NCBI RefSeq assembly: GCF_900129645.1 | Contig: NZ_FSQZ01000001.1 | Span: 1,946,001 to 2,010,000, forward strand | DNA: 64,000 bases | Source: Acetomicrobium flavidum | Lineage (GTDB): Bacteria; Synergistota; Synergistia; Synergistales; Acetomicrobiaceae | Direction: 5' to 3' | Part shown: piece after piece, positions 31,311 to 59,643 of the stretch | Layout: every line of letters begins with the position of its first letter | How positions within the stretch are numbered: the stretch's first letter is position 1 | The notes under the pieces: model-generated | Told to the model about the DNA's origin: nothing | What the model saw: the letters and a program-made list of their open reading frames with translations, nothing else | Database searches by the model: none | Made by a program: the position numbers and the translations under genes

Positions 31311-31976
31311 ATGAATGACGTAACAAGCGGCGTTACCGCCGTAGTCCTTGCCGGGGGCAGGGGAAAAAGGATCGGCCAAAACAAGGCATTGCTAAAGATA
31401 GGCGACGTCTATCTGCTTGAGATAGTCCTAAAAAACATCAGGGCAATCTTTGACGACGTACTGCTTGTCGTCTCTTCGATTGACTACGATTACCTCATGT
31501 CCCGGCACTTTTCTTTCTTGTCCTGTTACTGTACGGACGTCATCGTCGACCCCATCTCCAACCAGGGCCCTCTTCTTGGCCTCATCCAGGGCTTGATGAG
31601 GTCCGACAACGAATGGACCTTTCTTTTAGGCTGCGACATGCCATTTGTAAACGGATCCCTGGTGAGACTGATTTACCAAAAAAGGACAAATACCTCCCAG
31701 GCGATCGTCCCTCGACTGCATGGCTTTCTTGAGCCGCTTCATGCCTTTTATCACCGCTCTTGCCTGCCTGCCGCAGAAAGCGCCTTCAGGCAGGGAAAAA
31801 GAAAGATCAAGGACTTTTATCCGCTCATCGATCTATGTGCCATCGAGGAAATCGAGATGAGCTTATTAAGGAATTATAAATTGTCGTTTTTTAACATAAA
31901 TACAGCAGAAGATCTACAAAAGGCAGAAAGTTTACAAATTATGGCCAAAAGACTGCAGCAGCAAGCCTCACGTTGA
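31311..31976 (+). CDS. mobA: Molybdenum cofactor guanylyltransferase
   Basis: MobA joins GMP to molybdopterin, giving the dinucleotide cofactor used by many Mo/W enzymes. The 221-residue protein has AVVLAGGRGKRIGQNKALLK (the nucleotide loop L-A-G-G-x-G-x-R and the K-A-L lysine), DPISNQGPLLGLIQGL and LLGCDMPFVNGSLV with the metal-binding aspartate. It stands 338 bases ahead of the C1 cluster and fits the need of FwdB/FwdD for a molybdopterin guanine dinucleotide. Confidence 0.88.
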   Translation: MNDVTSGVTAVVLAGGRGKRIGQNKALLKIGDVYLLEIVLKNIRAIFDDVLLVVSSIDYDYLMSRHFSFLSCYCTDVIVDPISNQGPLLGLIQGLMRSDNEWTFLLGCDMPFVNGSLVRLIYQKRTNTSQAIVPRLHGFLEPLHAFYHRSCLPAAESAFRQGKRKIKDFYPLIDLCAIEEIEMSLLRNYKLSFFNINTAEDLQKAESLQIMAKRLQQQASR

Positions 31977-32172
31977 GGCGTCCGCGCAAAAAAGCCTTAA
32001 ATCAGCGCGCGGCATGTTGTCGTCTTGCAATATCCCCTTGGATTTTGCCTAAAACCTGAGGGGCGTTGGCAGACGTACATCCTTGCGCCTGCCATAAAAG
32101 GCATTGGGTACTGGCAGGTATACACCTCATAAATCCGACAAAAGCTTGATGCGGTCTTGGATTAAATCTTGC

Positions 32173-32200
32173 TTGACAGAACATGGCGATAATATAATAT
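32173..32200 (+). promoter_or_regulatory. Likely promoter of the C1 cluster
   Basis: TTGACA at 32173-32178 is followed 16 bases on by TAATAT (32195-32200); an overlapping TATAAT at 32193-32198 gives a 14-base spacing. The block lies about 115 bases before the DUF2193-like gene and is the best promoter in the 337-base gap after mobA. The rest of the gap holds a 7-bp inverted pair (CCTGCCA...TGGCAGG, about 32087-32117) of unknown role. Confidence 0.55.
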
Positions 32201-32313
32201 ATAAGGTAGGTAAATGTGAGCGCAAAACAATGAGGGGGTGAAAGGGGCAACTGAATTAAGTTGCTTTGGATGTTTAGTTGATAAAATCATAAACGAGGAG
32301 GGTGAAGGGTTCC

Positions 32314-33849
32314 ATGGCTAATATGATTGAAAAGATGGTTAATGAGGCAATTGAGGCTACAAAGTCTGTGTTTCTTGTAATAAAGGAAAAACGCGGTGGT
32401 CAGTTCAAGCTGGAGGATTGCAAACCCTACGTTGACGCCGTCAACAAGATGACTGTTGGAGAGGGCCAGTGCAAGACCGTCATCGACCTTCACGTTCAGT
32501 CGGTCAACGCCCATTACGAGATTTTAAAGGGCATGACGGACTACATCCGGCCGGAGGACGATCCCTTCGTAGAGCATTTCCAGACCCCGCCCATTCTCGA
32601 AATACTGTATGAGGAAGATCCCGATTTCAAGAAATCGATGGAGAAGTTCATCGACGCCATCGCCAAAAACAGGGCCCTGATCGGCCGTGAGGCGGCCCGC
32701 AGATACGGCGGGATGTACGGCCCGACCTGCGTTGTCGACTTTGCCATGTCCGTAGGCTCGGTCCCGAACGTCGTCAACAAGATCTTAGTCGACCTCGACA
32801 TTCCCGAGAAGCACAAAAAGACGATACTCGCCTGCAAGTCCTGGGGCATGAACACCTCCTACGGCTTTGGCGCCGCCTTTAGGGCTGCCATAGAGTCCGG
32901 CAAGTCTGCCGCCGAGGCCGAAGAGGCCGAGGTAAAGCAGTTCCAGTTCATATATAAAGAGCCCGTAGAGGCGCAGGCAAGGCTCATGGAGACCCACAAC
33001 CTCGGCGGACACGGTCCCTACAGCTCCTTTGACGTCAGAAAATACATGGCCCAATACAAGGAATGGATGCGTCCTTATGTGGTGGCTGCGCTAAAGGCCG
33101 GCGTGCATCCGGCGAACATCACCGCCGTTCCCGCCTACTGCGTGGGCGACATCGGACACCACATCTCGCAGTCTGCCTACAATATGTTCAAGAGCGATAT
33201 GGTCTTCGGCATTTACGACGCAGTGATGCAGGTGTTCGAGAACACCATGAGAAAGGCCCTGAAGGAAGGCGCCTTCAAGAGCGAGTGGGATGTCCTGACC
33301 GTCGCGACGGGCGCTCCCGCCTGCGCCGTGGCTTATATCCTCTGGCTTGACAGCTTCACCGTCCCCATGGTCATAGACCTGCTCACCAAGCGCTTCTACA
33401 ACTACTGCGCCATGAACCCCAAGAGGGGAGAGGCCGACGAGCTTCACAACGTAGACTTCATGGACGTCATAGCCCGCGGAGAGGAGATCTTGGACATCAG
33501 CCCTCTGGGAGCCGGCGGAAAGATCAAGGGGATAGAGATAGACCTTTCGCCCATCGACAAGCACGAGATAGTGAGCAACCCGCAGCGCTACACCTATCCC
33601 GCGTGCGCCATCACCCAGAGGTTTGCCGCCCTCATGGCGCTTGCAGATTTTCCGTGCTACCTGACGCCGGAGTGCACCACCGCCACCTTGATGACCAACA
33701 TCATCGCAAAGAACCCCGGCATGCCCGGAGCTCCCGTCAGGGCCTGCAAGGGTTGCGCCGTGACGAAGCTCATCAAACGTAACGTTCCCTACGTCAAGGG
33801 AGAGGGCGCGGGTCCCTGCGGATATTGCGAATGGTATAGAGCTGTATAA
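32314..33849 (+). CDS. DUF2193-like protein of unknown function, first gene of the C1 cluster
   Basis: A 511-residue cytoplasmic protein resembling the DUF2193 family, which I know only from methanogenic archaea. Its function is not established. The sequence is rich in glycine and conserved-looking blocks (KSWGMNTSYGFGAAFRA, NLGGHGPYSSFDVRKYM, GAPACAVAYILWLDSF) and ends with many cysteines: TYPACAIT, YLTPECTT, RACKGCAVTK and GPCGYCEWYRAV, a possible metal or iron-sulfur site. I start it at the ATG at 32314, with GGAGGGTG at 32297-32304, not the GTG at 32302. It has its own promoter region and a strong hairpin right behind it, as if made in larger amounts than the rest. An enzyme that feeds or drains the C1 pool is my inference. 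Confidence 0.7.
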   Translation: MANMIEKMVNEAIEATKSVFLVIKEKRGGQFKLEDCKPYVDAVNKMTVGEGQCKTVIDLHVQSVNAHYEILKGMTDYIRPEDDPFVEHFQTPPILEILYEEDPDFKKSMEKFIDAIAKNRALIGREAARRYGGMYGPTCVVDFAMSVGSVPNVVNKILVDLDIPEKHKKTILACKSWGMNTSYGFGAAFRAAIESGKSAAEAEEAEVKQFQFIYKEPVEAQARLMETHNLGGHGPYSSFDVRKYMAQYKEWMRPYVVAALKAGVHPANITAVPAYCVGDIGHHISQSAYNMFKSDMVFGIYDAVMQVFENTMRKALKEGAFKSEWDVLTVATGAPACAVAYILWLDSFTVPMVIDLLTKRFYNYCAMNPKRGEADELHNVDFMDVIARGEEILDISPLGAGGKIKGIEIDLSPIDKHEIVSNPQRYTYPACAITQRFAALMALADFPCYLTPECTTATLMTNIIAKNPGMPGAPVRACKGCAVTKLIKRNVPYVKGEGAGPCGYCEWYRAV

Positions 33850-33869
33850 TTAAACTTTAATCGCAAAAG

Positions 33870-33899
33870 AGGGGGGTTGGAGCATATCCGATCCCCCTT
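33870..33899 (+). terminator. Hairpin between the DUF2193-like gene and mtdB (attenuator or processing site)
   Basis: AGGGGGG and TTGGA pair with TCCGA and CCCCCTT around a GCATA loop, a stem of about 11 pairs. The T-run after it is weak (TTCATTGTAT), so it may act as a partial terminator or protect the upstream message end. It sits 21 bases after the stop of the first gene. Confidence 0.6.
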
Positions 33900-33923
33900 C
33901 ATTGTATAAAGGGGGTAAGTGAC

Positions 33924-34781
33924 TTGAAAAAGATCCTGCTTCAACTTGACTGCGATCCCTTGGCAAGCGTATTTGATGCCGTTACCGCCTATGACGCCGG
34001 AGCGGACGTCGTACTGCAGTACGGCAACGTGACGACAGAAAATGTCGTAGACCTGGTGTACGGCGTGATGTTCACCCGAGGCGGTGATAAATTAAAATAC
34101 AGCGCCATCTTCATAGGCGGCTCAAACGTCAGCAGGGCATCGGAGATCCTTGACGTCGTAAAAAAGACGTTTTTTGGAAACGTGAGAAATTCGGTCATGT
34201 TCGACCCAAGCGGCTGTAACACCACTGCAGCAGCTGCGGTGGCCAAGATGACGAAGGCCTGCGACGTGAAGGGCCAAAAGGTGGTCGTCCTGGCGGGCAC
34301 GGGTCCCGTCGGGCAGCGCGCGGCTGCCATGTTTGCCATGGAAGGGGCAAAGGTGGTGGTCACCTCAAGGAAACTCGAGAAGGCCCAAGCGGCAGCCGAG
34401 GAGATAAAGGCCACGTTCGGCCTGGAAGTTCAGCCCTTCGCTGCCTTTGATGACGAAAGCACGACCGAGGCCCTAAAAGGAGCGGTGGCCGCCCTTTGTA
34501 CCGGAGCGCCCGGGGTAACGCTCATTCGCGAGCCCCTCTGGAAGGCCAATCCTTCCCTTAAAGTGCTCGGGGACGTGAACGCCGTGCCGCCCATGGGCGT
34601 GGAGGGCATGAAGTCGTCTTACAACGGCGAGGTCATAGAGGGAAAGGTCATGTTCGGCTCCATGGGCATCGGCGGCCTAAAGATGAGGGTGCACAGAACC
34701 TGCATCGAGCGGCTCTTTGAAAGAAACGACGCCCTATTTGACGCTCAAAGCATACTTGAGATAGCCAAGGAGCTATCCTGA
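33924..34781 (+). CDS. mtdB: NAD(P)-dependent methylene-H4MPT dehydrogenase
   Basis: MtdB oxidises methylene-tetrahydromethanopterin to the methenyl form, with NAD or NADP. The 285-residue protein has the family N-terminal half (FDAVTAYDAGADVV, TRGGDKLKYSAIFIGGSNV, and NSVMFDPSGCNTTAAAAVAK) and an NAD-binding fold with VVLAGTGPVGQRAAAMFAMEG. The TSRKLEKAQAA segment after the second strand, with arginine and lysine, hints that NADP is accepted. GGGGGTAAG precedes its TTG/ATG start region. It is followed after two bases by an ATP-grasp gene. Confidence 0.9.
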   Translation: MKKILLQLDCDPLASVFDAVTAYDAGADVVLQYGNVTTENVVDLVYGVMFTRGGDKLKYSAIFIGGSNVSRASEILDVVKKTFFGNVRNSVMFDPSGCNTTAAAAVAKMTKACDVKGQKVVVLAGTGPVGQRAAAMFAMEGAKVVVTSRKLEKAQAAAEEIKATFGLEVQPFAAFDDESTTEALKGAVAALCTGAPGVTLIREPLWKANPSLKVLGDVNAVPPMGVEGMKSSYNGEVIEGKVMFGSMGIGGLKMRVHRTCIERLFERNDALFDAQSILEIAKELS

Positions 34782-34783
34782 TT

Positions 34784-35923
34784 TTGAGGATACTTCTCGT
34801 AGGCGTAAGCACCAGGGCCTTGGCCGAGTCCGCCTTAAGGGCAAGCTTTGATGCGGTCGCTGTCGACTACTTCGGTGATCTTGACCAAAGTCGCCTGATA
34901 CCTTCGTTGGCCGTAGGGCGGGACTTCGGCCTTCCCTTCGACGAAGCTTCCATATGCAAGGTTTGCTCGCTTCTTGACTACGACGGGGTCATCTACACGG
35001 GAGGGGCCGATATAAAGCCTGCACTAATCGATCTAATCTCAAAGGACAAGGTGCTTTTCGGCAACGACTCAAAGGTCTTGCGTGACGTGAGAGACCCCAT
35101 ATTGTTGCGCGAGGCCTGCAGGCTGGGTGAAATTGAATTTCCCGTGACGCTTGTTTCAAGTGAGGCTAAAGCTTTAGACAAAGAAAGCAAGTGGCTCGTA
35201 AAGCCCATTTACGGCGGAAGCGGGTTTGGAATAGGCTTTTACGAAGGCGGCGAAGTGGGCGAGGATTTTTACGTGCAGCAGTTCGTCAGCGGCCTTCCCG
35301 CATCGGCGTCCTTTTTGTCGGATGGCAGGACATGTCAGCTGCTTGGCATGACAAGACAGATCATAGGAGACGAATCCCTTGGAGGAAGCGGCTTTAAGTG
35401 GTGCGGCAACGTCTATCCCCTTTTTTCGACTAATGCCAATTTTGTTGATATAATGAACAAAATATCGGGCTGGGGAACTGCTTTGACCGGCCATTTTGGC
35501 CTTAAGGGCCTTTTTGGCATAGATTTTGTGATAGACGAAGGAGGCAGCCCCTTTCTGGTGGAGATAAACCCGCGCTACAGCGCCTCCATGGAGCTGATCG
35601 AGCACGACTTAAACGTGTCTTTCACGTCCCTTCACGTGTCGGCCTGTCTGGGCAAAATGGCAAAGTTTGCCGTCCAAAGCACGCAGGGCTTCACGGCCAA
35701 GGGCATAGTTTACGCCAAAGATGACGTAGTCACGCCCGATACGTCGAAGTGGCTGGGGCTGCACAGCGATGTTCCCTTTCCGAACGAGCACGTAGCCAAG
35801 GGCTTTCCAATTTGCACCGTATTTGGAAGGGGCCAAACGCAGGATGACTGCATTGCCGACCTTTATAGGAAGGCAAACGAGGTATATCGAGAGTTAAAGG
35901 AAGAGGCATACCATGAGCGATGA
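34784..35923 (+). CDS. ATP-grasp protein of the H4MPT cluster
   Basis: A 379-residue ATP-grasp ligase-type enzyme. ATP-binding marks include KWLVKPIYGGSGFGIGFYEG and the metal site near the end, FGIDFVIDEGGSPFLVEINPRY (E-x-N-P-R). Such a gene is common in H4MPT gene sets of methylotrophs, where it is thought to act in making the cofactor; the exact reaction is not known to me. It uses a TTG start (AAGGAG 12 bases ahead) and overlaps fwdD by 11 bases. Confidence 0.8.
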   Translation: MRILLVGVSTRALAESALRASFDAVAVDYFGDLDQSRLIPSLAVGRDFGLPFDEASICKVCSLLDYDGVIYTGGADIKPALIDLISKDKVLFGNDSKVLRDVRDPILLREACRLGEIEFPVTLVSSEAKALDKESKWLVKPIYGGSGFGIGFYEGGEVGEDFYVQQFVSGLPASASFLSDGRTCQLLGMTRQIIGDESLGGSGFKWCGNVYPLFSTNANFVDIMNKISGWGTALTGHFGLKGLFGIDFVIDEGGSPFLVEINPRYSASMELIEHDLNVSFTSLHVSACLGKMAKFAVQSTQGFTAKGIVYAKDDVVTPDTSKWLGLHSDVPFPNEHVAKGFPICTVFGRGQTQDDCIADLYRKANEVYRELKEEAYHER

Positions 35924-36263
35924 ATCTTTTAGCGCGGTTTGTACGCTGGTAACGGGGCGCACCCTTGAGCAGGCCAAGGGGATGCACATCGGCAAGACGG
36001 AGGAGGAATACAGGAAAGCAGTTGACAAGGCCTTTCTGTCGCCTGAGGTTTTAAGCAAGCTGTCCTTAAATGAAGGCGACGAAGTAATGCTTAAGACGCG
36101 CTGCGGCAAGGTGCGAGTCAGGGTATATGCAGATGCGGGGTTGCCCGAGGATGTGGTCTTCGTTCCCATGGGGCCGACGGCGAATACGCTCGTAGGCTCT
36201 GACACCGAAGGAAGCGGGATGCCCTCATTCAAGGGCCTGCAGGTGGAGGTCGTTAGATCATGA
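35913..36263 (+). CDS. fwdD: Formylmethanofuran dehydrogenase subunit D (molybdopterin dinucleotide-binding)
   Basis: A 116-residue protein of the molydop-binding beta-barrel fold, subunit D of formylmethanofuran dehydrogenase, which covers the Mo/W dinucleotide cofactor held by subunit B. The typical run is LVTGRTLEQAKGMHIGKTEE, LNEGDEVMLKTRCGKVRVRV, and the end FVPMGPTANTLVGSDTEGSG. Aerobic methylotroph Fhc complexes lack this subunit. It overlaps the ATP-grasp gene upstream and fwdB downstream by four bases. Confidence 0.9.
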   Translation: MSDESFSAVCTLVTGRTLEQAKGMHIGKTEEEYRKAVDKAFLSPEVLSKLSLNEGDEVMLKTRCGKVRVRVYADAGLPEDVVFVPMGPTANTLVGSDTEGSGMPSFKGLQVEVVRS

Positions 36264-37531
36264 CGGTCGAAAGAAACGTCGTATGCACCTTCTGCGGGTG
36301 TTTGTGCGACGATATAAATTTAACCATAGAGGACGATCGCATCGTCAAGGTGGAAAAAGCCTGCGGCAACGGCAGGGGCTTGTTTGAAGGCTACAACCCC
36401 GATCCTATAATGCCAAAGGTTATGGGAAGGGATACGTCGTTTCAGGAGGCGGTGAAGGAAGCTTCAAGGATCTTAAGGTCCGCCAGATATCCCTTGATCT
36501 ACGGCCTGTCTTCCACGTCGTCCGAGGCACAGCGCATGACCGTGCAGCTGGCCGAACTGATCGGGGCATCCATCGATTCGACATCGTCGGTCTGTCACGG
36601 CCCCACGGGCCTTGCCATGCAGGCGGTAGGGGAACCTACCTGTACCTTGGGCGAGATAAAAAACAGGGCCGACCTCCTGGTCTTTTGGGGATGCAACCCC
36701 CTTGTGACCCACAGCCGTCATTTCGCCCGGTATTCGGCCATGCCAAAGGGGCGTTTCATCCCCGAGGGCAGGCGCGACCGCAAGGTCGTCGTCGTGGACG
36801 TGCGCCGCAGCGAGACGGCCAAGTCGGCCGATATGTACTTGCAGATCAAGCAGGGATGCGACTTTGAGGTGCTCCTTGCCCTAAAGGCCTTAATAATGGG
36901 GCGCACCCTGGATGCCGTCGAGGTGGGCGGGATACCCGCAGAGGTGCTGCAGCAGCTTGCAGTTGAAATGAAGTCCTGCCGATACGGAATGATATTTTTC
37001 GGCATGGGACTTACCATGACAAATGGCAGGGACTTAAACGTACGTGGCGTTTTGTCGCTGGTAAGGGAGTTAAACGATCACACCAGGTTTTCTGCCCTGC
37101 CCATGAGGGGCCACGGAAACGTGACGGGAGCAGACCAGGTCATGTCCTGGCTTTGCGGGTATCCATTTGCCGTCAACTACTCGAGGGGCTACCCCAGATA
37201 CGGCCCGGGCGAGTATACGGCCGTCGACTTGCTCTGCAGCGGCGAGGCCGACTGCATGCTCGTGATAGCCTCAGACCCTGCGGCTCACTTTCCCGCCCCG
37301 GCGGTAAAGCACATGAAAACTATCCCCGTCATAGCCATCGATCCCGCAGAAAGCCTGACGGCAGCCGGGGCGTCCGTTTATTTTCCCACGGCCATGTACG
37401 GCATCGACTGCGAGGGCACGGCCTACAGGATGGACGGCGTAGCCCTGCGCCTGAAGGCCCCCTTAAAGAGAAAGAGGCCGAGCGACGAGGAAGTCTTGCA
37501 AGCCTTGATTGAAGGTGTGAAGTCATGTTGA
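36260..37531 (+). CDS. fwdB: Formylmethanofuran dehydrogenase subunit B (catalytic, Mo/W)
   Basis: The molybdopterin-type subunit that interconverts CO2 and formate inside the complex. 423 residues. Iron-sulfur cysteines C9, C12 and C16 (VCTFCGCLCDD) and C35 (KACGNG) are present, and C112 in SSVCHGPTG stands where the metal-ligand cysteine (or selenocysteine) of archaeal FwdB is found. Further blocks, FWGCNPLVTHSRHFARYS and KSADMYLQIKQGCDFE, are family-typical. In methylotroph FhcB the redox site is lost; here it looks intact. The gene overlaps fwdD by four bases and fwdA by seven. Confidence 0.93.
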   Translation: MTVERNVVCTFCGCLCDDINLTIEDDRIVKVEKACGNGRGLFEGYNPDPIMPKVMGRDTSFQEAVKEASRILRSARYPLIYGLSSTSSEAQRMTVQLAELIGASIDSTSSVCHGPTGLAMQAVGEPTCTLGEIKNRADLLVFWGCNPLVTHSRHFARYSAMPKGRFIPEGRRDRKVVVVDVRRSETAKSADMYLQIKQGCDFEVLLALKALIMGRTLDAVEVGGIPAEVLQQLAVEMKSCRYGMIFFGMGLTMTNGRDLNVRGVLSLVRELNDHTRFSALPMRGHGNVTGADQVMSWLCGYPFAVNYSRGYPRYGPGEYTAVDLLCSGEADCMLVIASDPAAHFPAPAVKHMKTIPVIAIDPAESLTAAGASVYFPTAMYGIDCEGTAYRMDGVALRLKAPLKRKRPSDEEVLQALIEGVKSC

Positions 37532-39186
37532 TCATAAAAGGCGGCCAAGTTTACGACCCGACCAACGGCGTAAACGGCGAAGTAAAGGACATTTACATAG
37601 AAGGCGGTAAAGTGGTAAACCCTCCCGAGCGCATCCCCGATGACGCAACCGTCATAGATGCCCGGGGTATGATCGTCATGCCCGGCGGCGTAGACATGCA
37701 CGCCCACATCGCCGGTTCCAAGGTAAATACGGGCCGCAAGCTCTGCCCTGAGGATCACTACGAACACTTTAGGATCGCCGAGAAGGGATTGCGGTCGGGC
37801 GCAGGCTCTAGAGTTCCCACCACCTTTTTGACGGCCTACAGGTACGTGGAGATGGGCTATACCACGGTCGTAGAGGCAGCGTCAGCTCCTCTCGTGACGC
37901 GACATACCCACGAAGAGCTTATGGACATGCCCCTGCTTGACAAGGCCATACTGATCACCATGGGCAACAACGAAATCCTCATGGACATGATCTCTCAAGA
38001 CAAGTTTGACGAGGCAAAAGACGTCATGGCATGGCTCCTTAACTCCACAGGAGGCTACGGCGTCAAGGTCGTAAACCCAGGCGGAGTGGAAAACTGGAAG
38101 TGGGGCGGAAACGTCCAAAGCTGGGACGACGAGGTCAAGTATTTCGGCTTAACCTCAAGAAAGCTGCTTAACGCCTTGGTCCAGTCGGCAGACAGCTTAA
38201 AGCTTCCTCACTCCGTTCACCTTCACGGATTAAACCTTGGGGTGCCGGGAAACGTCGAGACGACGGTAGAGGTTATAAATGACGTCCAAGGCAGGCTTCA
38301 TCTGTGCCACCTGCAGTTTTTAAGCTACGGCAAGGACAAAAGGGGGCGCATGCACAGCGGTGCAAGCGCCGTCATGGAGGCCTTCAACGAACATTCAAAC
38401 GTCACCATGGATGTAGGCCAGATCGTATTCGGCAACGCCGTCACGATGACCTCGGACGGCCCGCTTGAGTACAGGATTCAGAAGATGACGGGACATAAGT
38501 GGTGCAACGACGACGTGGAATGCGAGATGGGCGGAGGCATTGTCCCCATGGAGTATAAGATTAAGTCCGTCGCCTCGGCAGTGCAGTGGATAACGGGGAT
38601 GGAGCTTTTTTTGCTCGCCAAGGATCCCTGGAGGGTTGCGCTGACGACCGACCATCCCAACGCAGGGCCATTTTTTTGCTACCCGCAGGTCATAAGGCTT
38701 TTGATGGACAAGGACTACAGGAATCATTTCATCGGCCTGCTTCCTCCAAAGGCCCTCAAGAGCTCGGTGATAAAGGACTTAGACAGGGAATACAGCTTAT
38801 ATGAGATCGCCATAATTACGAGGGCTGCTCCTGCCAAAATATTGGGCTTGAAGGAAAAGGGACATTTGGGAGTTGGCGCCGACGGAGACGTGGCCATATA
38901 CGATCCTCGAAACTACGGCCACAGGGGATGCATCTGCAACTTCAGGGAGTGCCGCCGCGCCCTCGACTTTCCGGCCTGGGTCATAAAGGGCGGAGATGTC
39001 GTCGTAAAGGACGGCACGCTTTTGAAGGAGTTTCCGGGCCAGGTATACAGGGTCGTCCCCGATTTTGACAGCTCCATAGAGGAAAAGATAAGGGAAGATT
39101 TCGAAAAATATTACACCCTTTCTTTCGAAAACTATCCCGTCCAGGAAGAGTACCTGAAAGGCTCAAAGGAGGTGGCCTGCTCATGA
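37525..39186 (+). CDS. fwdA: Formylmethanofuran dehydrogenase subunit A (amidohydrolase)
   Basis: The metal-dependent amidohydrolase subunit that makes or splits the formyl-methanofuran bond, 553 residues. The dinuclear site residues of archaeal FwdA are visible at near-identical positions: H59 and H61 (DMHAHIAG), K181 as the likely carboxylated lysine (GGYGVKVVNPGG), H232/H234 (SVHLHGLN), H262 (LCHLQF) and D376 (LTTDHPNAG). It works with FwdB through a formate tunnel in known complexes. It overlaps the next gene by four bases. Confidence 0.95.
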   Translation: MLIIKGGQVYDPTNGVNGEVKDIYIEGGKVVNPPERIPDDATVIDARGMIVMPGGVDMHAHIAGSKVNTGRKLCPEDHYEHFRIAEKGLRSGAGSRVPTTFLTAYRYVEMGYTTVVEAASAPLVTRHTHEELMDMPLLDKAILITMGNNEILMDMISQDKFDEAKDVMAWLLNSTGGYGVKVVNPGGVENWKWGGNVQSWDDEVKYFGLTSRKLLNALVQSADSLKLPHSVHLHGLNLGVPGNVETTVEVINDVQGRLHLCHLQFLSYGKDKRGRMHSGASAVMEAFNEHSNVTMDVGQIVFGNAVTMTSDGPLEYRIQKMTGHKWCNDDVECEMGGGIVPMEYKIKSVASAVQWITGMELFLLAKDPWRVALTTDHPNAGPFFCYPQVIRLLMDKDYRNHFIGLLPPKALKSSVIKDLDREYSLYEIAIITRAAPAKILGLKEKGHLGVGADGDVAIYDPRNYGHRGCICNFRECRRALDFPAWVIKGGDVVVKDGTLLKEFPGQVYRVVPDFDSSIEEKIREDFEKYYTLSFENYPVQEEYLKGSKEVACS

Positions 39187-41972: not shown

Positions 41973-42528
41973 GGTCATAGTTTCAACATTAAACTCCGAG
42001 GGCTTGCCAAACTGGGCTCCCATGGGCTTGATCGAGCAGCAGGGCAGCTACTTTTTGCACGTCTTTAAGGGCAGCCATACCTACGAGAACCTAATGTCAC
42101 GGGGAGAGTTTGTGGCAAACGCAACGGACGACATCTTGGCCTTTTGCCTAAGTGCATTGGGCGAACCCACACTCGATTGCGTGCCTGCCAAAAGAGTGGC
42201 CGGCTACGTATATGCAGAGGCCTGCTCGTGGATGGAGTTTGAGGCCGTCGCAACTGAAGAAGACGATCTTGCCGGGCGATTTAGCTGCCGCCTCCTTTAC
42301 AGCGACGTAAGGCGTTCGTATAGGGGCTATAATAGGGCTAAAGGGTCGATCATGGAGCTTTTGATAGCGGCGACGCGATATCGGCTTTACGACCGCCAAT
42401 TTTTTAACGGGCTTATATTGAACGCCAAGGCTTTAGTCGAAAGGACGGGCGGAGAGAGGGAAGCGCAAGCCCTCGCATTTGTGGAAGGCTATCTTGAGGA
42501 GGTATTCGATGAAGGTCGTTCACGTTGA
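41962..42528 (+). CDS. DUF447-family protein
   Basis: A 188-residue protein of the DUF447 family, with a flavin-reductase-like split barrel (STLNSEGLPNWAPMGLIE, FKGSHTYENLMSRGEFVANA, then a helical tail). The family is a regular member of H4MPT gene sets; its reaction is not known to me. Neighbour overlaps on both sides tie it to cofactor synthesis. It ends inside the first codons of the beta-RFAP synthase gene. Confidence 0.82.
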   Translation: MIYEVIVSTLNSEGLPNWAPMGLIEQQGSYFLHVFKGSHTYENLMSRGEFVANATDDILAFCLSALGEPTLDCVPAKRVAGYVYAEACSWMEFEAVATEEDDLAGRFSCRLLYSDVRRSYRGYNRAKGSIMELLIAATRYRLYDRQFFNGLILNAKALVERTGGEREAQALAFVEGYLEEVFDEGRSR

Positions 42529-43462
42529 GGTCGGCGCCAGGCTGCACTTCGGCTTTCTTGACTTAAACGGAAGCCTTGGAAGGATGTTTGGCGGGATCGG
42601 TATGGGTATAGACGAACCCAAGGTTTCCCTTGACGTCTGCAGGAGCGACACCCTGCAGGCTAAAGGGCCAGACTTTGAGAGGGCGCTTGAGTATGCTCAA
42701 AGGTTTTTGGACCACTTCGACATCAAGGATAGAGCTTTCATAAATATCGCCTCTGCCGTGCCTTCACACGTGGGGCTCGGCTCGGGCACCCGCATGGCAT
42801 TGGCCGTGGGCAAGGCCTTGGCCGTCCTTTTTGGCATTGACCTGTCGATAAAGGAGCTTGCCGTTGTCATGGGCAGAAGCAGGCGGTCAAGCGTCGGTGC
42901 GGTGACCTTTGAAAGAGGCGGCTTCGTCCTGGACGGGGGTCACAAAAAGGGACCGAAAGGCAACTTTCCGCCCTTGCTCTTTCACGCCCTGCTTCCGACG
43001 GAGTGGACCTTCGTTGTTGCCGTACCGATGTCGCTTAAAGGGGCAAGCGGACCGGAGGAAGAGCAAAAGTTTAAGGCCCTAAGCATACACGAGGAGCTTT
43101 CGTCAAAGGTGTGCAGGTTGACCTTGATGAAGTTGCTGCCCTCCATCGTCGAGCGGGATGTAGCAGCCTTTGGAGAGGCCATAACGGAGATTCAGGATTT
43201 GGTGGGAAGCTGTTTTTCTTCCCTTCAGGGAGGCAAGTTTCACTCGGCCCTGTCTCAAAGGATCGCCTGCCTGATGAAGGGCGAAGGCGCCTTAGGCATA
43301 GGACAAAGCTCGTGGGGGCCTGCCGTCTACGGCATCACGGCCGACCCGGAGAAAGCGCAAGCCGTCTGCGGCAGGTTAAAGGACGGATTTGGCGAAGAAA
43401 CGCTGATCTTTACGGCATCCTGTGCCCAGGACGGGGCAAACGTCTGCGTTAGAGAGGACTGA
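42509..43462 (+). CDS. Beta-ribofuranosylaminobenzene 5'-phosphate synthase
   Basis: The first committed enzyme of H4MPT synthesis, joining 4-hydroxybenzoate or para-aminobenzoate with phosphoribosyl pyrophosphate, a GHMP-kinase-fold protein. About 317 residues. It begins VHVEVGARLHFGFLDLNG, with the ATP-loop-like SHVGLGSGTRMALAVGKAL and GRSRRSSVGAVTFERGGFVL. I choose the ATG at 42509 with GAGGAGG at 42496-42502, not the longer frame from 42479. Its presence shows this operon makes an H4MPT-type carrier, not just folate. Confidence 0.93.
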   Translation: MKVVHVEVGARLHFGFLDLNGSLGRMFGGIGMGIDEPKVSLDVCRSDTLQAKGPDFERALEYAQRFLDHFDIKDRAFINIASAVPSHVGLGSGTRMALAVGKALAVLFGIDLSIKELAVVMGRSRRSSVGAVTFERGGFVLDGGHKKGPKGNFPPLLFHALLPTEWTFVVAVPMSLKGASGPEEEQKFKALSIHEELSSKVCRLTLMKLLPSIVERDVAAFGEAITEIQDLVGSCFSSLQGGKFHSALSQRIACLMKGEGALGIGQSSWGPAVYGITADPEKAQAVCGRLKDGFGEETLIFTASCAQDGANVCVRED

Positions 43463-43468
43463 TTTTAT

Positions 43469-44359
43469 TTGATCTATAACGGCGTTGAAATAGAAGACAC
43501 TTACGCTGAGGCCTTTTCCATGTGGGGAAGCCGAATCGTCGTCACGGCGGATACACGGGAGTGGGTCATGACTGCAGCCGCCTCCGCCACGGGGTTTGCC
43601 ACTTCCGTGATAGGCTGCGGATGCGAGGCCGGCGTAGAATCCGAGCTCGACGAGTCTCAAACCCCCGACGGCAGGCCAGGGGCAAGCATCCTCATCTTCG
43701 GCGTTTCAAGGTCCGGCCTGGAATCTCAGCTCATCTCAAGGGTTGGGCAATCCATAATGACGTGTCCTACCACGGCCTGCTATAACGGCTTAGATGACGG
43801 AGAGCAGGTAGACGTGGGCGGAAAGCTTAAGTTCTTCGGGGATTCATATCAGACAAGCAAGATGCTCGGCAATAGGCGATTTTGGAGGATACCCGTCATG
43901 GACGGGGAATTTCTGGTGGAGCAGAAGTTTTGCATAAAAAAGGGCGTCGGCGGGGGAAACTTGCTGATCATTTCAAAGGACGTCAAAAGCGGCCTCGAGG
44001 CTGCCCAAAGGGCGGTAGGCGCAATGAAAAAGGTCCCTGGCGCCATAATGCCATTTCCCGGCGGGGTCGTTCGAAGCGGAAGCAAGGTCGGCTCAACCTA
44101 CCGCTTTCTCAGCGCCTCTACCAACACCCCCTATTGTCCCACGCTGAAAAGGCTAGTTAAGACGTCGCTACCCGAGGAGGCCAACGCAGTGTACGAGATA
44201 GTCATAGACGGCTTAGACGAGCGCTCCGTCAGGGACGCCATGGGACGCGGGCTTTTGGCTGCTTGTTCCTGCGATATTTTGTCGGTGACGGCGGGAAACT
44301 ACGGCGGAAACCTGGGACAGTACAAGTTTCACCTGCTTGAAATTTTAAAGAACATGTGA
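43469..44359 (+). CDS. ftr: Formylmethanofuran:tetrahydromethanopterin formyltransferase
   Basis: Ftr moves the formyl group between H4MPT and methanofuran. 296 residues, as usual. Recognisable blocks: [20 protein letters not shown] at the start, [33 protein letters not shown], and the final [17 protein letters not shown]. It starts at a TTG six bases after the preceding stop. In methylotrophs this is FhcD and belongs to the Fhc complex. Confidence 0.95.
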
Positions 44360-44372
44360 TGGGTGGTCGATC

Positions 44373-45668
44373 ATGAAAAGCTTAAGGTTTTTGAGGAAAG
44401 TATCTATAAGGGTCCGCATGTGCCTGTTTTTGGCGACAATGCTGGCCCTTGAGTGCGCGGTCGGGTTCATGCACTATAATGCAGTAAAGTCATTTGACGT
44501 CCCGATGATGCTTTTGGCCCTGTGCGTTCTCGTCACGCTTATCGGGGGGCTTGCCGTGACGGCATCCATCACCGCTCCCATAAACGAATTTCGGGCTTTC
44601 ATGAAAAAGCTAAAGGAGACGTTGGACTTTACGCTTGAATACGATGTATGGTCCGACGACGAGATGGCCGAGGTCGGAAAGGTCACCTACCAATTTTTGG
44701 ATCACGTACAGGAGCTGATCGGCTTCATATCAAAATCATCGGCCGAGGTGGAAGGCCTCTCAAAGACCGTGCTTTCCATGGCCAACAAGGACGACAGCGT
44801 GGCCGGCCGGTTGCTTGACGAAATCACCGAGCTGTCGAAGATGATGGAAAGGTTTGCCTCCGACATGAGCTCCCTTAACGCGGGCGTTCAGGAGGTGGCT
44901 TCGGGAAATCAGATCGCAGCGGCAAGGACCATGGACATCGCCAAGGAGATAGCGGATGCGTCCAAGTCCGCCGAAGAGGGCTTAGCGGTCATAGGCCAGA
45001 TGAGCGAGAGGATAAACAAGGCAGCTGAGGAATCCCTTCAAAGCATCGCTACCGTAAACGAGCTGGCGCAAAAGATCGAGGACATCAATCAGCTTTTGGA
45101 GAACATCTCGAGAATAGCCACGAGGACGAACATGCTGGCCTTGAACGCCGGCATCGAGGCAGCCAGGGCCGGAGCCGGCGGCAAGGGATTTGCCGTGGTG
45201 GCCGAGGAGATAAGGAAATTGGCTTATGAATCAAGCGACGTCGCAAGCAACGTATCCCGCCAAATGGGAGATATGTCTCTGAAGCTTCAAAGCGTGATAA
45301 ATTCGGTAAGGGCCGGCTCAAGCACCTCCGCCGACGCAAACCAAAGGGCTAAGGCGACGATGGAGACGATAAGCGCCATCCTTGAAAATCTCAAAAAGGT
45401 GTCATCGGCCGCAAACGACCTGTCGGCAGTTTCCGAGGAACAGGCTGCGTCATCGGAGGAGATATCGGCCACCCTGCAAAGCATTTCGACCGAGGTGGAG
45501 AGGATAAAGGGCTTCGTAATCGAGGCAGAAAAGGCCATGTCGCAGCTTGCCGACTCGGCGTCGGATTTAAGCGACAGGGCAAGAAATATGGAGGAACTGG
45601 CATTGTCCCTTAAGAACTTAGTAGGCAGGTTCAAGCTGTGGCAGGGGGATAAATTGCAAAACGTATAG
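44373..45668 (+). CDS. Methyl-accepting chemotaxis-type protein without outer sensor domain
   Basis: A 431-residue chemotaxis signalling protein. Two membrane segments, about residues 16-34 and 43-65, are separated by only eight or so residues, so there is no periplasmic sensor. A HAMP-like part follows, then a long coiled coil with the hairpin tip [20 protein letters not shown] and [19 protein letters not shown]. The sensing could be internal or by membrane state. It lies 14 bases after ftr and 24 before fwdC on the same strand, an odd place for such a gene. Confidence 0.9.
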
Positions 45669-45691
45669 CACAAAACATCGGGGTGAAGCTC

Positions 45692-46555
45692 ATGCAAAGT
45701 TGTGCCTTATGTACCTTGGCAAGGACCGTTTCAGTTAGCAATGGCGTTACCTTGAGTTTAAAGACGGCCGGCACGATCCCGATAGAAGTCGACGGGATAT
45801 TGCCCGAGACGGTGCTAGGCCTAAGCGTCAATGAAATTTGCGCTTTAAAGATACACGCGGGAAAAGACGTCGTGGAGCTTGGCGAGGTCTTTGACGTCAC
45901 CGTGAACGGCAACGAGGCACTCATCTTTGAAGGCGACCTAAGGCACGTAAAACACATAGGCGAAAACATGACCTGGGGGCTTGTGGTAGTCAACGGAGAC
46001 GCGGGCATGCATCTGGCCCAGCACATGAAGGGCGGCACGCTGGTCGTAAACGGCAACCTTGAGCCGCGCTGCTGCTGTGAGATGTCGGGCGGCACAGTGA
46101 TCGTAAACGGCAACGCCAAGGCGATGCTCGGCTCTCCTCTTCCCGGAAACAACAAGGGAATGAGGGGAGGGCTTATCGCCGTGTTCGGCTCTGTGGGAAG
46201 CAGGGCGGGGGAGGGCATGAGAAGGGGCCTTATAGCCGTTTCCGGCGACGTAGGAGACTTTGCAGGGGCAAACATGATAGCGGGGACCATGGTCGTGTTC
46301 GGCAAGATGGGGCTTAACGCCGGCGGAGGCATGAAGAGGGGAAGCATCGTATCCTTGGGCGGCACCGAAAGGGTCCTTCCAACGTTTCTTTATAGCTGCC
46401 TTTACACGCCCGTTTATTTAAAGCTTTATCTTAAATTTTTGAGCGATCTGGGCTTTGCCGTCACAAAGGAAATGTTAAACGGGCCTTACAGGAGGTATGC
46501 AGGCGACATGTCTGCACTTGGGAAAGGGGAGATATTGATCCTTGATAAACCTTAA
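45692..46555 (+). CDS. fwdC: Formylmethanofuran dehydrogenase subunit C
   Basis: A 287-residue right-handed beta-helix subunit with the glycine repeats (G-x3-G-x2-M-x2-G) of FwdC/GltB-type domains: GENMTWGLVVVNGDAGMHLA, GEGMRRGLIAVSGDVGDFAG, ANMIAGTMVVFGKMGLNAGG. It holds FwdA and FwdB together. The ATG at 45692 is chosen for its GGGGTGA at 45680-45686; a GTG at 45683 is the alternative. It is split off from fwdDBA by seven other genes. Its 3' end overlaps mch by 14 bases. Confidence 0.9.
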   Translation: MQSCALCTLARTVSVSNGVTLSLKTAGTIPIEVDGILPETVLGLSVNEICALKIHAGKDVVELGEVFDVTVNGNEALIFEGDLRHVKHIGENMTWGLVVVNGDAGMHLAQHMKGGTLVVNGNLEPRCCCEMSGGTVIVNGNAKAMLGSPLPGNNKGMRGGLIAVFGSVGSRAGEGMRRGLIAVSGDVGDFAGANMIAGTMVVFGKMGLNAGGGMKRGSIVSLGGTERVLPTFLYSCLYTPVYLKLYLKFLSDLGFAVTKEMLNGPYRRYAGDMSALGKGEILILDKP

Positions 46556-47480
46556 CGAATCGGCCTTTAAGCGCGTCAAAGAAATGATCGACAGGTCTGA
46601 CGAAGTGGGCGTATCCGCATTTAAGGCAGGCTGCGGGGCTACCATCGTGGACGCAGGCATAAATTCAAACGGTTCCTATGAGGCGGGCAGGCTTTTTGCT
46701 GAGGCCTGCCTGGGGGGATTGGGAAGCGTGAGCTTTGCCGTTGACCTTGAGCTTTCCGCCCCATCCGTCGTCGTAAAGGTCGCCAATCCTTCCGTTGCCT
46801 GCCTGGCTTCGCAGTACGCCGGTTGGGCGCTCAAGGGCGAGGGCTTTTATGCCTTGGGCTCCGGCCCTGCAAGGTCGCTTTACGGCAATGAACCCCTTTA
46901 TGCAACGCTTGGTTACAGGGAAAGGTCGTCCGTGGCGGTTCTTGCCATTGAATCTTCCAAATTTCCCCCAGACAGCCTGCTTGAGACGGTAGCAGCCTGC
47001 TGCAAGGTGGATATTAGCAACCTTTACGTGCTGATAGCGCCCACCAACTCTCTGGCAGGCAGCATACAGATAGTATCAAGGGTCGTTGAAACCGCACTGC
47101 ACAAGCTCTTTGAGCTGGGCTACGACGTCTCTAAGGTCTTGCACGGGTTTGGCACATGCCCCATTCCTCCCTTGCCGGAGGATTTCATGACGGCCATGGG
47201 CTGGACCAACGACGCGGTCTTATACGGGGGAAAGGTATGGATCACCCTGCGTGACGAGGTTGCCGTCGACTCGCTTGTCGAAAAGCTTCCCTCCTCGTCG
47301 TCGAGCGATTACGGCCTGCCCTTTTTGGACCTCTTTAAAAGATACAACTACGACTTCTATCAGGTAGACCCGATGCTTTTTAGCCCCGCCGTCGTGACGA
47401 TTAACAACCTGGCGACCGGCCACCTTTCTTCTGTGGGAAGGGAAAACGTGGAGCTTCTTAGGCGAGAATGGTTTAGATGA
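46542..47480 (+). CDS. mch: Methenyltetrahydromethanopterin cyclohydrolase
   Basis: Mch hydrolyses methenyl-H4MPT to 5-formyl-H4MPT. 312 residues. Signature blocks: FKAGCGATIVDAGINSNGSY, LACLASQYAGWALKGEGFYALG-type centre (split here as VACLASQYAGWALKGEG), GSGPARSLYGNE, and KVLHGFGTCPIPPLPED. It starts at a TTG inside the end of fwdC and overlaps the RimK-like gene by four bases. Fully typical and intact. Confidence 0.95.
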   Translation: MINLNESAFKRVKEMIDRSDEVGVSAFKAGCGATIVDAGINSNGSYEAGRLFAEACLGGLGSVSFAVDLELSAPSVVVKVANPSVACLASQYAGWALKGEGFYALGSGPARSLYGNEPLYATLGYRERSSVAVLAIESSKFPPDSLLETVAACCKVDISNLYVLIAPTNSLAGSIQIVSRVVETALHKLFELGYDVSKVLHGFGTCPIPPLPEDFMTAMGWTNDAVLYGGKVWITLRDEVAVDSLVEKLPSSSSSDYGLPFLDLFKRYNYDFYQVDPMLFSPAVVTINNLATGHLSSVGRENVELLRREWFR

Positions 47481-48343
47481 AAGCGACCATCCTTGGAGCC
47501 GCAAACGCCTGGCACGTCGAGGTCTTAATCAAAGCCTTCGCGGAACGAAACGTCAGCGTAAACGTGCTGCGCACGAGGGACCTCAAGGCTTTAATAAACG
47601 ACGATCTCATTTCCGTCAACGAAGCAGACCTTGGAGACGTTATTTTAGTCCGCTCCCTACCCGGCGGGTCGCTTGAGCAGGTGATTTTTCGCGTCGACCT
47701 GCTTCACGTGCTTGAGGAGGTCAAGGGAGCCAAGGTGATCAACTCGCCTGACGCCTTGGAAAAGACGGTGGATAAGATGTACGCCACCGCCTTGCTTTCA
47801 AAGGCCGGCTTAAAGGTCCCTGAAACATGCGTCACCGAAAGGTACGACGACGCCATGGCAGCCTTCGCGGAGCTTGGCGGAGACGTCGTGGTAAAGCCGG
47901 TGTTTGGCTCGGAAGGACGCGGCATGACCAGGGTTAGCGACCCCGAAACGGCACACAGGGTGTTCGTGGCGCTGAATCAATATAGATACGTATATTACCT
48001 TCAGAGGTTCATACCTCACGGAAACAGGGACATAAGGACCTTTGTGGTAAACGGCAGCGTCATAGCCGCCATGGAAAGGCTATCCTACGACTGGAGGTGC
48101 AACGTGGCCTTAGGTGCTCAAGCTAGCTTGCTAGTCCCTGACGAAAATCTGATCGACTTGAGCTTGAAGGCTGCCGACGCCGTTGGGGCCTTTTACGCGG
48201 GAGTCGACATACTGCCGTCAGAGGAAGGAGAGCTTTACCTGCTTGAGGTAAACGGCATCCCCGGCTGGAGGGGATTGCAGCAGGTGGCAAAGCCGGATAT
48301 CGCTTCGACGATCGTAGAGGCACTGCTTGGGTTAAATCCATGA
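47477..48343 (+). CDS. RimK-like ATP-grasp ligase (probable H4MPT glutamate ligase)
   Basis: A 288-residue ATP-grasp enzyme of the RimK/MptN type, which in H4MPT sets is thought to add glutamate to the cofactor. Visible: VINSPDALEKTVDKMYATAL, GGDVVVKPVFGSEGRGMTRV (ATP loop), RFIPHGNRDIRTFVVNG, and the metal-binding end LYLLEVNGIPGWRGLQ. Four-base overlaps on both sides bind it to mch and the next gene. Confidence 0.88.
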   Translation: MKATILGAANAWHVEVLIKAFAERNVSVNVLRTRDLKALINDDLISVNEADLGDVILVRSLPGGSLEQVIFRVDLLHVLEEVKGAKVINSPDALEKTVDKMYATALLSKAGLKVPETCVTERYDDAMAAFAELGGDVVVKPVFGSEGRGMTRVSDPETAHRVFVALNQYRYVYYLQRFIPHGNRDIRTFVVNGSVIAAMERLSYDWRCNVALGAQASLLVPDENLIDLSLKAADAVGAFYAGVDILPSEEGELYLLEVNGIPGWRGLQQVAKPDIASTIVEALLGLNP

Positions 48344-49236
48344 TGTACGATACCAAAGAGATCACCTGGGCAGCTCAACTTGCTTGCATATTTGAGGTGT
48401 GCGCCAAAAAGCCCGGCAACGTCCACGTAGAAGGGGCTTTTAGCGACTCAAACCCCTTTGATTTTTTTGCCGGGGCGGTAGCCATGGGCACTTCGTTTCA
48501 GCGACTAGACGAGCTTTCCGTGGGCGAGCTCGTCCTTTGTTGTATTAAAGACAAGTCGAAGCTTACCTCAACGAACGTAAACTTGGGCATTTTGCTTCTT
48601 TTGGCGCCGCTTTGCAAGGCTGCCCGAAGCTGTGAGGCTGACGGAAGTTTCGATGCCATTAGAAGCTCGCTTGAAGACGTCTTAGACAACTTGACGGAAG
48701 GGGACGCTGACTGCGTGTACGAGGCCATCAGGCTGTCAGGCGCAGGAGGCATGGGCAAGGTAGAGCGGTACGACGTCTCGCAGGCTCACGCCGGCATCCC
48801 CTTAAAGCAAGCCATGGCAGAAGCAGCACATCGCGATTCGATCGCCAGGGAGTACGTGACGAACTTTTCCGTAACCTTTGAGATATCCCTACCTGCCATA
48901 TGGGAAGCGCTAAATAAAGGATTATCCATGCGCGACGCCATAGTCCAGGCCTTTTTGACGATACTGTCTGAGGTGGCCGACACCTTGATCGCAAGGAAGC
49001 TTGGCATCACGGAGGCGGCAAAGGTCTCAAAAAGGGCAGCTGAAGTCCTAAAAACGGGTGGACTTTACAGCGCAACCGGCAAGGCAGCTGTGCGCAAATT
49101 TGACCTTTACCTCAGACGCGTCGGCAACAAGAGAAACCCGGGCACGACGGCAGACCTCACCGTTTCGGGGCTTTTTTTGTACCTGCTCGACTGCATCCAT
49201 AAAGGCGCCTTGCCTTCGCTGATCAAGAGATGGTGA
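48340..49236 (+). CDS. CitG/MdcB-like triphosphoribosyl-transferase family protein
   Basis: A 298-residue protein of the CitG family (triphosphoribosyl-dephospho-CoA synthase). The KPGNVHVEGAF motif near residue 25 and SGAGGMGKVERYDVS are typical. Members of this family sit in the H4MPT clusters of methylotrophs and planctomycetes, where they are thought to serve H4MPT synthesis rather than citrate lyase; no citrate lyase genes are near. It has a four-base overlap upstream. Confidence 0.88.
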   Translation: MMYDTKEITWAAQLACIFEVCAKKPGNVHVEGAFSDSNPFDFFAGAVAMGTSFQRLDELSVGELVLCCIKDKSKLTSTNVNLGILLLLAPLCKAARSCEADGSFDAIRSSLEDVLDNLTEGDADCVYEAIRLSGAGGMGKVERYDVSQAHAGIPLKQAMAEAAHRDSIAREYVTNFSVTFEISLPAIWEALNKGLSMRDAIVQAFLTILSEVADTLIARKLGITEAAKVSKRAAEVLKTGGLYSATGKAAVRKFDLYLRRVGNKRNPGTTADLTVSGLFLYLLDCIHKGALPSLIKRW

Positions 49237-49261
49237 CGTCGGTCTCATGGGAGGTTTCGTC

Positions 49262-50002
49262 ATGTCGGTTGGTTTCAGTGAAAAAAACATCTTTAAGTAT
49301 TACGCAAAAGACAGATCATGGTCATTTGATGCGGACATCGTAGCCCACGAAAAGGATGTCTTTATAAACGTAGGTGGCCGTCCTTTTGCCACGTTAAGGG
49401 CCTCAGAAGGCGACATGAAAGAGCTTGCCGTTGGGCATATCTTTTCCTGTGGCCTTATAGCGCGTTATGGCGACGTGGCAAGCATGGACGTTTACGGCAA
49501 CGCGGTAAACGTGATTTTAAAGGCCGCGCCCGGGCCTGATACCCTTAAAGCTTCATATATGGCGCCGAGTTGGAAGACGAGCGCAGATACGATATTTGAA
49601 GGCGTTAAACATCTCCAGGAAGCTTTTCTTTATCGAAAGACGGGCGCCTTTCATGCCGGCTTGCTCTTGCGCCGCGACGGCCTAAAGTATTTTTTGGTTG
49701 AAGACATCGGTAGGCACAACGTCGTCGAAAAGGTCATCGGCAGGGCGTTGATGCAGGACGTCGACATGGGCGAATGTATGCTTTTGATCTCCGGAAGGCT
49801 CATGTGCGAGCTTGTAAGCAAGGTGACGCTGGCAGGCATTCCCATTTTGGGCAGCGTATCGGCGACGACGTGTGAAGCTGCAGCCTTAGCCGAAGGTTGC
49901 GGTATGACCTTAATTGGCTTCATCCGCGAGGGGAGGATGAACGTCTACACCCACCCCGCCCGAATTGCTGAGTTTGACGAAACGCGAATAAACAACAACT
50001 AA
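49262..50002 (+). CDS. fdhD: FdhD-like formate dehydrogenase accessory protein lacking the cysteine motif
   Basis: FdhD transfers sulfur to the molybdenum cofactor of formate dehydrogenases. The C-terminal half is typical (FHAGLLLRRDG, VEDIGRHNVVEKVIG, SGRLMCELVSKVTLAG, GFIREGRMNVYTHP). The C-G-x-C-G type motif that carries the sulfur, expected near residues 95-110 here, is absent; that region reads SYMAPSWKTSADT. I start at the ATG at 49262 (GGGAGG at 49248-49253). It is last in the operon, so its client is likely FwdB. Whether it still carries sulfur is open. Confidence 0.82.
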   Translation: MSVGFSEKNIFKYYAKDRSWSFDADIVAHEKDVFINVGGRPFATLRASEGDMKELAVGHIFSCGLIARYGDVASMDVYGNAVNVILKAAPGPDTLKASYMAPSWKTSADTIFEGVKHLQEAFLYRKTGAFHAGLLLRRDGLKYFLVEDIGRHNVVEKVIGRALMQDVDMGECMLLISGRLMCELVSKVTLAGIPILGSVSATTCEAAALAEGCGMTLIGFIREGRMNVYTHPARIAEFDETRINNN

Positions 50003-53211: not shown

Positions 53212-53573
53212 TTTTTATCACCGCCAAAGTATATCTCGGCGTAGCGTTTAAGCCAGCTTGCGCCGTCGATGGCAGCTAGCTGGGCGTTTAGGTATTCGGC
53301 GGCGGTCAGAGATTTGTTTGTCATTGATTCGCTAAATATCCGGGCGCTGAAATCTTTCATATCGGCCTTTAAACCTATAAGCTCATCTAAATGCTTTATA
53401 GCCTCGTCGAAACCTTTTTTCTTCAAAAAAAGCAGCGTTGCCGCGATGCCGTTTCCAATGATCATGCTGCCAAGCCCTCTTACGGTCCTTAGGTAATCTT
53501 CCCTGCGCTTTTCTTCAACGCTTTTGACCATGGCCATTGCCTTATAAGCCATCTCGAGGTTTTTATGTATCAC
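53208..53573 (-). CDS. cmr5: CRISPR type III-B small subunit Cmr5
   Basis: A 121-residue, all-helical small subunit of the Cmr complex, with the helix YLRTVRGLGSMIIGNGIAAT and LFLLKKK-like continuation typical of Cmr5, and the end LNAQLAAIDGASWLKRYAE. Position between cmr4 and cmr6 with four-base overlaps on both sides confirms it. Confidence 0.9.
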   Translation of the reverse strand: MIHKNLEMAYKAMAMVKSVEEKRREDYLRTVRGLGSMIIGNGIAATLLFLKKKGFDEAIKHLDELIGLKADMKDFSARIFSESMTNKSLTAAEYLNAQLAAIDGASWLKRYAEIYFGGDKK

Positions 53574-58055: not shown

Positions 58056-58061
58056 CGAGGA

Positions 58062-59582: not shown

Positions 59583-59643
59583 ACGCGATCACCACCTAAA
59601 TTTGCATTTACATGCGAACATACTTTTACCACTCTTAATGGCA

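Follow-up and report, generated by a model that had tools for sequence, protein, structure and literature searches.

What would a fermentative anaerobe do with tetrahydromethanopterin (H4MPT) and methanofuran, two carriers of one-carbon (C1) units? The question is raised by a 64,000-nucleotide stretch of the Acetomicrobium flavidum genome (contig NZ_FSQZ01000001.1, positions 1,946,001 to 2,010,000), hereafter the window. The host genome belongs to the genus Acetomicrobium in the phylum Synergistota. Matches to family hidden Markov models (HMMs) and measured spacing show that positions 31311-50002 of the window hold a compact operon of 18 consecutive plus-strand genes, which encode MtdB, Mch, Ftr and FwdABCD together with enzymes that make the H4MPT and methanofuran cofactors. 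We consider it probable that the operon gives fermentative Acetomicrobium an H4MPT/methanofuran C1 branch of the Fwd type, which forms CO2 and depends on W or Mo, and that this branch runs in the oxidative direction. A DUF2193 protein may supply or condition the C1 unit.

In such a branch, MtdB would convert methylene-H4MPT to methenyl-H4MPT with a yield of NAD(P)H, Mch would carry methenyl-H4MPT on to formyl-H4MPT, and Ftr would move the formyl group from H4MPT to methanofuran. FwdABCD would release the formyl group as formate inside the complex and then oxidize it to CO2. We infer this direction and also the electron acceptor; the low-potential electrons from Fwd would be passed on, plausibly to H2. 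The Mo/W cofactor would be supplied by MobA and FdhD, the remaining genes would build both carriers, and the branch would operate alongside folate C1 metabolism. The DUF2193 protein, which would supply or condition the C1 unit entering H4MPT, would be the counterpart of Fae in methylotrophs. The genes of the operon are as follows.

31311-31976, plus strand: mobA-like Mo/W cofactor nucleotidyltransferase (NTP_transf_3, 3.5e-30; MobA models 1e-24 to 1e-41, below curated cut-offs)
32302-33849, plus strand: DUF2193 protein of 515 aa (PF09959, E 4.1e-238, 492 of 498 HMM positions)
33924-34781, plus strand: mtdB, NAD(P)-dependent methylene-H4MPT dehydrogenase (Mpt_N PF09176, 3.8e-31)
34784-35923, plus strand: MfnD/MyfA-like ATP-grasp ligase with a putative role in methanofuran glutamylation (ATP-grasp_3, 3e-20; MfnD model, 9e-9; same slot in methylotroph clusters)
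35913-36263, plus strand: fwdD (NF042908, 2.8e-24, below its cut-off)
36260-37531, plus strand: fwdB, W/Mo-bis-molybdopterin guanine dinucleotide subunit (TIGR03129, 1.6e-158, above curated cut-off)
37525-39186, plus strand: fwdA, metal-dependent amidohydrolase subunit (TIGR03121, 1.4e-211, above curated cut-off)
39183-40643, plus strand: fused folK (HPPK)-mptA (GTP cyclohydrolase) (TIGR00294, 5e-83; TIGR01498, 7e-38)
40644-41972, plus strand: dihydropteroate-synthase-like gene, MptH-type (TIGR00284, 5.9e-59, 199.9 bits, below the cut-off of 256.65; DUF6513, PterinBD-DUF4346)
41962-42528, plus strand: DUF447 protein (PF04289, 2.4e-24; PF20766, 1.9e-9)
42479-43462, plus strand: beta-RFAP synthase, MptG (TIGR00144, 8e-52, above cut-off); an internal ATG near 42509 is the likelier start
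43469-44359, plus strand: ftr, formyl-methanofuran:H4MPT formyltransferase (TIGR03119, 4.4e-124)
44373-45668, plus strand: methyl-accepting chemotaxis protein (MCPsignal, 2e-32)
45683-46555, plus strand: fwdC (TIGR03122, 3.7e-73, above curated cut-off)
46542-47480, plus strand: mch, methenyl-H4MPT cyclohydrolase (TIGR03120, 7.7e-112)
47477-48343, plus strand: RimK-like MptN/MyfB glutamate ligase (NF040720, 4.7e-70, below its cut-off; TIGR00768, above cut-off)
48340-49236, plus strand: CitG-like triphosphoribosyl transferase (PF01874, 1.5e-67)
49247-50002, plus strand: fdhD, sulfurtransferase for Mo/W enzymes (PF02634, 1e-49; TIGR00129, 6e-43, above cut-off)

A first-pass annotation of this DNA had named 16 of these genes, each of which lies where it was placed and matches its family HMM, and had overlooked two, those for DUF2193 (32302-33849) and the chemoreceptor (44373-45668). 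It had also described nearly all junctions as overlaps of 4-17 bases. The single strand and the compactness hold, but the overlaps are fewer: seven are clear (4-14 bp), the RFAP junction overlaps by 20-50 bp depending on the start codon chosen, and most others abut or lie 2-14 bp apart. Two gaps are wider, 325 bp between mobA and DUF2193 and 74 bp between DUF2193 and mtdB. Mis-assembly, which had been named as a way in which the finding could fail, is very unlikely and was rejected, because the operon lies on a 2.0 Mb contig of an assembly with 99.87% completeness and 0% contamination, and because its gene order recurs in congeneric assemblies; the order is conserved in other Synergistota families as well. 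The chemoreceptor gene between ftr and fwdC is present in the congener loci L023 and L026 and absent from L022, L025 and L027.

Loss of the redox active site is the defining trait of FhcB in methylotrophs. FwdB of A. flavidum keeps its active-site residues, as alignment to PDB 5T5I and 8RJA and a motif check found the 4Fe-4S ligands C9, C12, C16 and C35 and the catalytic C112 intact. FwdA can be aligned with 5T5I over its whole length, with matching HxH and Lys/Asp motifs, and all four subunits, FwdA, B, C and D, are present (TIGR03121, TIGR03129 and TIGR03122 above cut-offs; FwdD model, 2.8e-24). Related operons supplied 48 FwdB homologues for comparison, and Cys occupies the catalytic position in 44 of them. 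The remaining four, all from Bacillota (Peptococcaceae, Formimonas, Moorella and Desulfosporosinus), carry an in-frame UGA there, the reading frame being open otherwise, with a possible stem-loop after it (TGA at 17099 in L102, 18909 in L104, 19146 in L105 and 19103 in L109), and this codon likely specifies selenocysteine. At other loci, further UGA candidates proved to be out of frame and were dismissed as noise; only these four were accepted.

An island for methanofuran biosynthesis lies in the same genome at 1882-1887 kb of the contig, some 60 kb ahead of the window. Its MfnB (4-(hydroxymethyl)-2-furancarboxaldehyde phosphate synthase; PF04476, 1e-77, at 1883775) has as neighbors genes for a HisA/HisF-related Orf17 homologue, an amino acid kinase (MfnE-like), a hydantoinase-type protein (MfnF-like) and an ATP-grasp ligase. 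We take the kinase gene to be a probable MfnE and the hydantoinase gene a probable MfnF. In methylotrophs, Orf17 and the MyfA/MyfB ligases are required for methylofuran (for the role of MyfA/OrfY, see PMC8141765). Given this island and the FwdB active site, the pathway looks functional, and the proposal that an anaerobic bacterium has a full set of H4MPT and methanofuran C1 genes gains support. MfnB was not found in Mch-positive Synergistota that include the complete genomes G022 and G033, despite their ftr and fwd genes.

We followed DUF2193 by scanning its alignment against 84,980 species genomes and kept 80 loci, 55 of them bacterial. H4MPT or methanofuran genes lie near DUF2193 in 48 of the 55 bacterial loci, the exceptions being mostly short contigs, and Mch is encoded in 47 of 50 DUF2193 genomes checked. 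DUF2193 accompanies H4MPT operons in at least seven bacterial and two archaeal phyla. Mch occurs in 20 of 151 Synergistota genomes and in 16 of the 17 with DUF2193 (Fisher p ~5e-17), the lone DUF2193 genome among 297 of Desulfobacterota is one of three that are Mch-positive, and the pooled Fisher p is ~7e-25; these p values ignore kinship and shared ancestry and so overstate the evidence. No Fae match was found in 34 of 38 bacterial DUF2193 genomes, and three of the other four have weak matches in long fused frames. Three Chloroflexota genomes (L063, L065, L066; G152-G154) have weak Fae-like domains in frames of ~500 aa, two per genome. In most of the Bacillota loci (L096-L115), a gene for a large sigma-54-type regulator stands upstream of DUF2193, suggesting an inducible operon.

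The second recurrent partner of DUF2193 is a channel. In 44 of the 80 loci, which come from both bacteria and archaea, DUF2193 is followed on the same strand by a major intrinsic protein (MIP) channel gene whose start lies no more than 700 bp away. AqpM structures are the best matches of the channels from Archaeoglobus (3NE2, 1e-139) and Moorella (9e-93). At the AqpM filter positions (F/I/R), F and R are invariant and I/V nearly so. A small Cys-rich gene, which we take to be a probable DUF2180, often accompanies the channel (23 loci).

Phylogenies were compared for DUF2193 and Mch. The archaeal Mch sequences make up a single supported clade (95/90), and all bacterial Mch, including that of Acetomicrobium, lie outside it. 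The DUF2193 proteins of Bacillota and Halanaerobium, by contrast, fall together with those of archaea (96/87), and linkage to the channel switches seven times across the DUF2193 tree. From these trees DUF2193 appears to have been transferred separately from Mch yet to have arrived in H4MPT operons, and this pattern suggests functional coupling.

Whether C1 units would be oxidized to CO2 or CO2 reduced had been left open in the first-pass annotation. The A. flavidum genome has no CODH/ACS (carbon monoxide dehydrogenase/acetyl-CoA synthase), with only a 22-bit, sub-cut-off PF03599 match inside an 820-aa frame, and no PF08714 match for Fae; Fhs and GcvT are present. Oxidation of amino-acid-derived C1 units is therefore favored, and oxidation of methylene-H4MPT to CO2 seems more likely than either acetogenesis or methylotrophy on formaldehyde. 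The Fwd reaction can run both ways, methanogens use the same modules to reduce CO2, and CODH/ACS is also encoded by Bacillota that have DUF2193 operons. A reductive, anaplerotic pathway, in which Fwd would fix CO2 on methanofuran and H4MPT would take the C1 unit to methylene for serine, purines and thymidylate, can draw on these facts. However, we think it improbable, since CODH/ACS is missing here, Fhs and GcvT are ordinary C1 sources, and the host is a fermenter that needs to dispose of electrons as H2, as known from the physiology of the genus (PMC6025917). The patchy distribution of Mch in the Synergistota genomes sampled (20 of 151) would also suit a recent transfer from methanogens, with the operon possibly non-functional baggage. 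That history is most improbable: the Mch tree, in which the archaeal clade excludes all bacterial sequences, gives no support to a recent methanogen-to-Acetomicrobium transfer, the order mtdB, ATP-grasp ... mch, RimK, citG is common to methylotroph clusters, and active sites are intact across the operon.

The AlphaFold2 model of the DUF2193 protein is confident and all-helical (pLDDT 90.7, pTM 0.92). Some His, Asp, Glu and Cys residues are invariant in the family, the conserved Cys being C435, C452, C482 and C485. A sequence search of the PDB returned no match, a fold search against the PDB and viral models found no relative (best E 0.095, TM at most 0.18), and a Pfam scan of 66 members at E<1 gave, besides PF09959, isolated chance-level matches only. 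It is possible, and we suggest it tentatively, that DUF2193 feeds C1 units into H4MPT. The more specific proposal is rather unlikely to be correct in full: DUF2193 would be an unrecognized enzyme, all-helical and of new fold, that attaches a small neutral C1 compound to H4MPT in anaerobes, with an AqpM-type channel admitting the compound in many lineages. If this is true, AqpM, whose natural solute is unsettled in the literature, gains a physiological role. It is somewhat doubtful that DUF2193 is instead a protein for cofactor biosynthesis or for Fe-S or metal maintenance of the H4MPT and methanofuran enzymes, and not a C1-entry enzyme. The gene does sit among cofactor genes, the four conserved Cys would fit, and the Methanococcus voltae protein is more abundant on FeS2, with labile Fe-S binding proposed (PMC9431491). 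However, Methanocaldococcus jannaschii, our control, makes H4MPT and methanofuran yet has no DUF2193 match, and because of this an essential role in cofactor synthesis was rejected as the sole explanation. The control genome of Methanosarcina acetivorans, by comparison, does have a DUF2193 match. Methylotroph plasmids gave no DUF2193 match, and the recurrent AqpM pairing in both domains points to a small neutral solute.

Several observations weigh against an oxidative branch with DUF2193 at its entry. Ten of the 12 archaeal DUF2193 carriers also have Fae. DUF2193 is absent from four of the 20 Mch-positive Synergistota and two of the three Mch-positive Desulfobacterota sampled, and so is not obligatory. 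No serine hydroxymethyltransferase or methyltransferase was tied to H4MPT use in this analysis, and no FwdF or FwdG ferredoxin subunit was seen in the operon, a genome-wide search not having been made. Finally, congener operons have an AfpA-type flavoprotein gene between folK-mptA and the dihydropteroate-synthase-like gene, which the window, the only part compared, lacks (0-bp junction at 40643/40644), and this leaves the last step of H4MPT biosynthesis, that of a dihydromethanopterin reductase of AfpA or DmrA type, unaccounted for.

The surroundings of the operon include the Cmr (type III-B) CRISPR and EtfAB neighbors reported earlier. Two CRISPR arrays (50162-52209 and 61687-63978), the first starting ~160 bp past fdhD, lie either side of the Cmr operon (52390-61308); the C1 operon is not a CRISPR artefact. 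On the other flank, a gene for an FMN-reductase-type flavoprotein (30536-31177, minus strand) is divergent from mobA. Some loci of Actinomycetota, Desulfobacterota and Archaeoglobi encode related flavoproteins (~30-39% identity) close to DUF2193.

How much of this is new? The first-pass annotation had confined H4MPT pathways to methanogens, aerobic methylotrophs and planctomycetes, which was overstated. A 2016 paper (PMC5020050) named Synergistetes, Firmicutes, Deltaproteobacteria, Actinomycetes and Chloroflexi among bacteria bearing H4MPT and methanofuran genes, and a 2018 paper (PMC6025917) described FwdABCDE, Mch and Ftr in the congener A. hydrogeniformans. The earlier observation is thus confirmed but is not new. 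Those two reports describe the same Fwd, Mch and Ftr genes in the same genus and phylum but, unlike the present analysis, mention neither DUF2193, nor the AqpM pairing, nor a methanofuran island. In the literature searched, a single paper names DUF2193, in passing only (PMC9431491), and a Formimonas metaproteomics paper mentions none of methanopterin, methanofuran and aquaporin. We found no report there of the DUF2193-headed, Fae-less form of the operon or of the DUF2193-AqpM pairing, and we regard both as novel. The role of H4MPT and methanofuran outside methanogens and methylotrophs was called enigmatic in 2016; a conserved DUF2193 partner gene, repeatedly paired with AqpM, turns that question into specific experiments in culturable anaerobes and methanogens.

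Several known systems come close to the operon. It shares the FwdABCD subunits, the 4Fe-4S motif and the catalytic Cys with archaeal Fwd/Fmd (PDB 5T5I, 8RJA) but is without fwdF and fwdG and pairs Fwd with an NAD(P)-type MtdB. The likeness to AqpM aquaporins (PDB 2F2B, 3NE2) belongs to channels beside DUF2193 in other lineages, whereas the Synergistota operons, including that of the window, have no channel adjoining DUF2193. The Fwd-bearing Hakuba Actinobacteria (PMC7325909) have the same bacterial fwdDBA-ftr-fwdC operon. They are described as Wood-Ljungdahl organisms in which no genes for making methanopterin (dihydromethanopterin reductase, glutamate ligase) were found, in contrast to the H4MPT genes and missing CODH/ACS found here. 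The Fae/MtdB/Mch/Fhc cluster of proteobacterial methylotrophs has in common the order RFAP, mtdB, ATP-grasp, mch, RimK, citG. Those clusters end in fae, whereas the Acetomicrobium operon, which has no fae, carries DUF2193 at its head and a FwdB with its redox active site.

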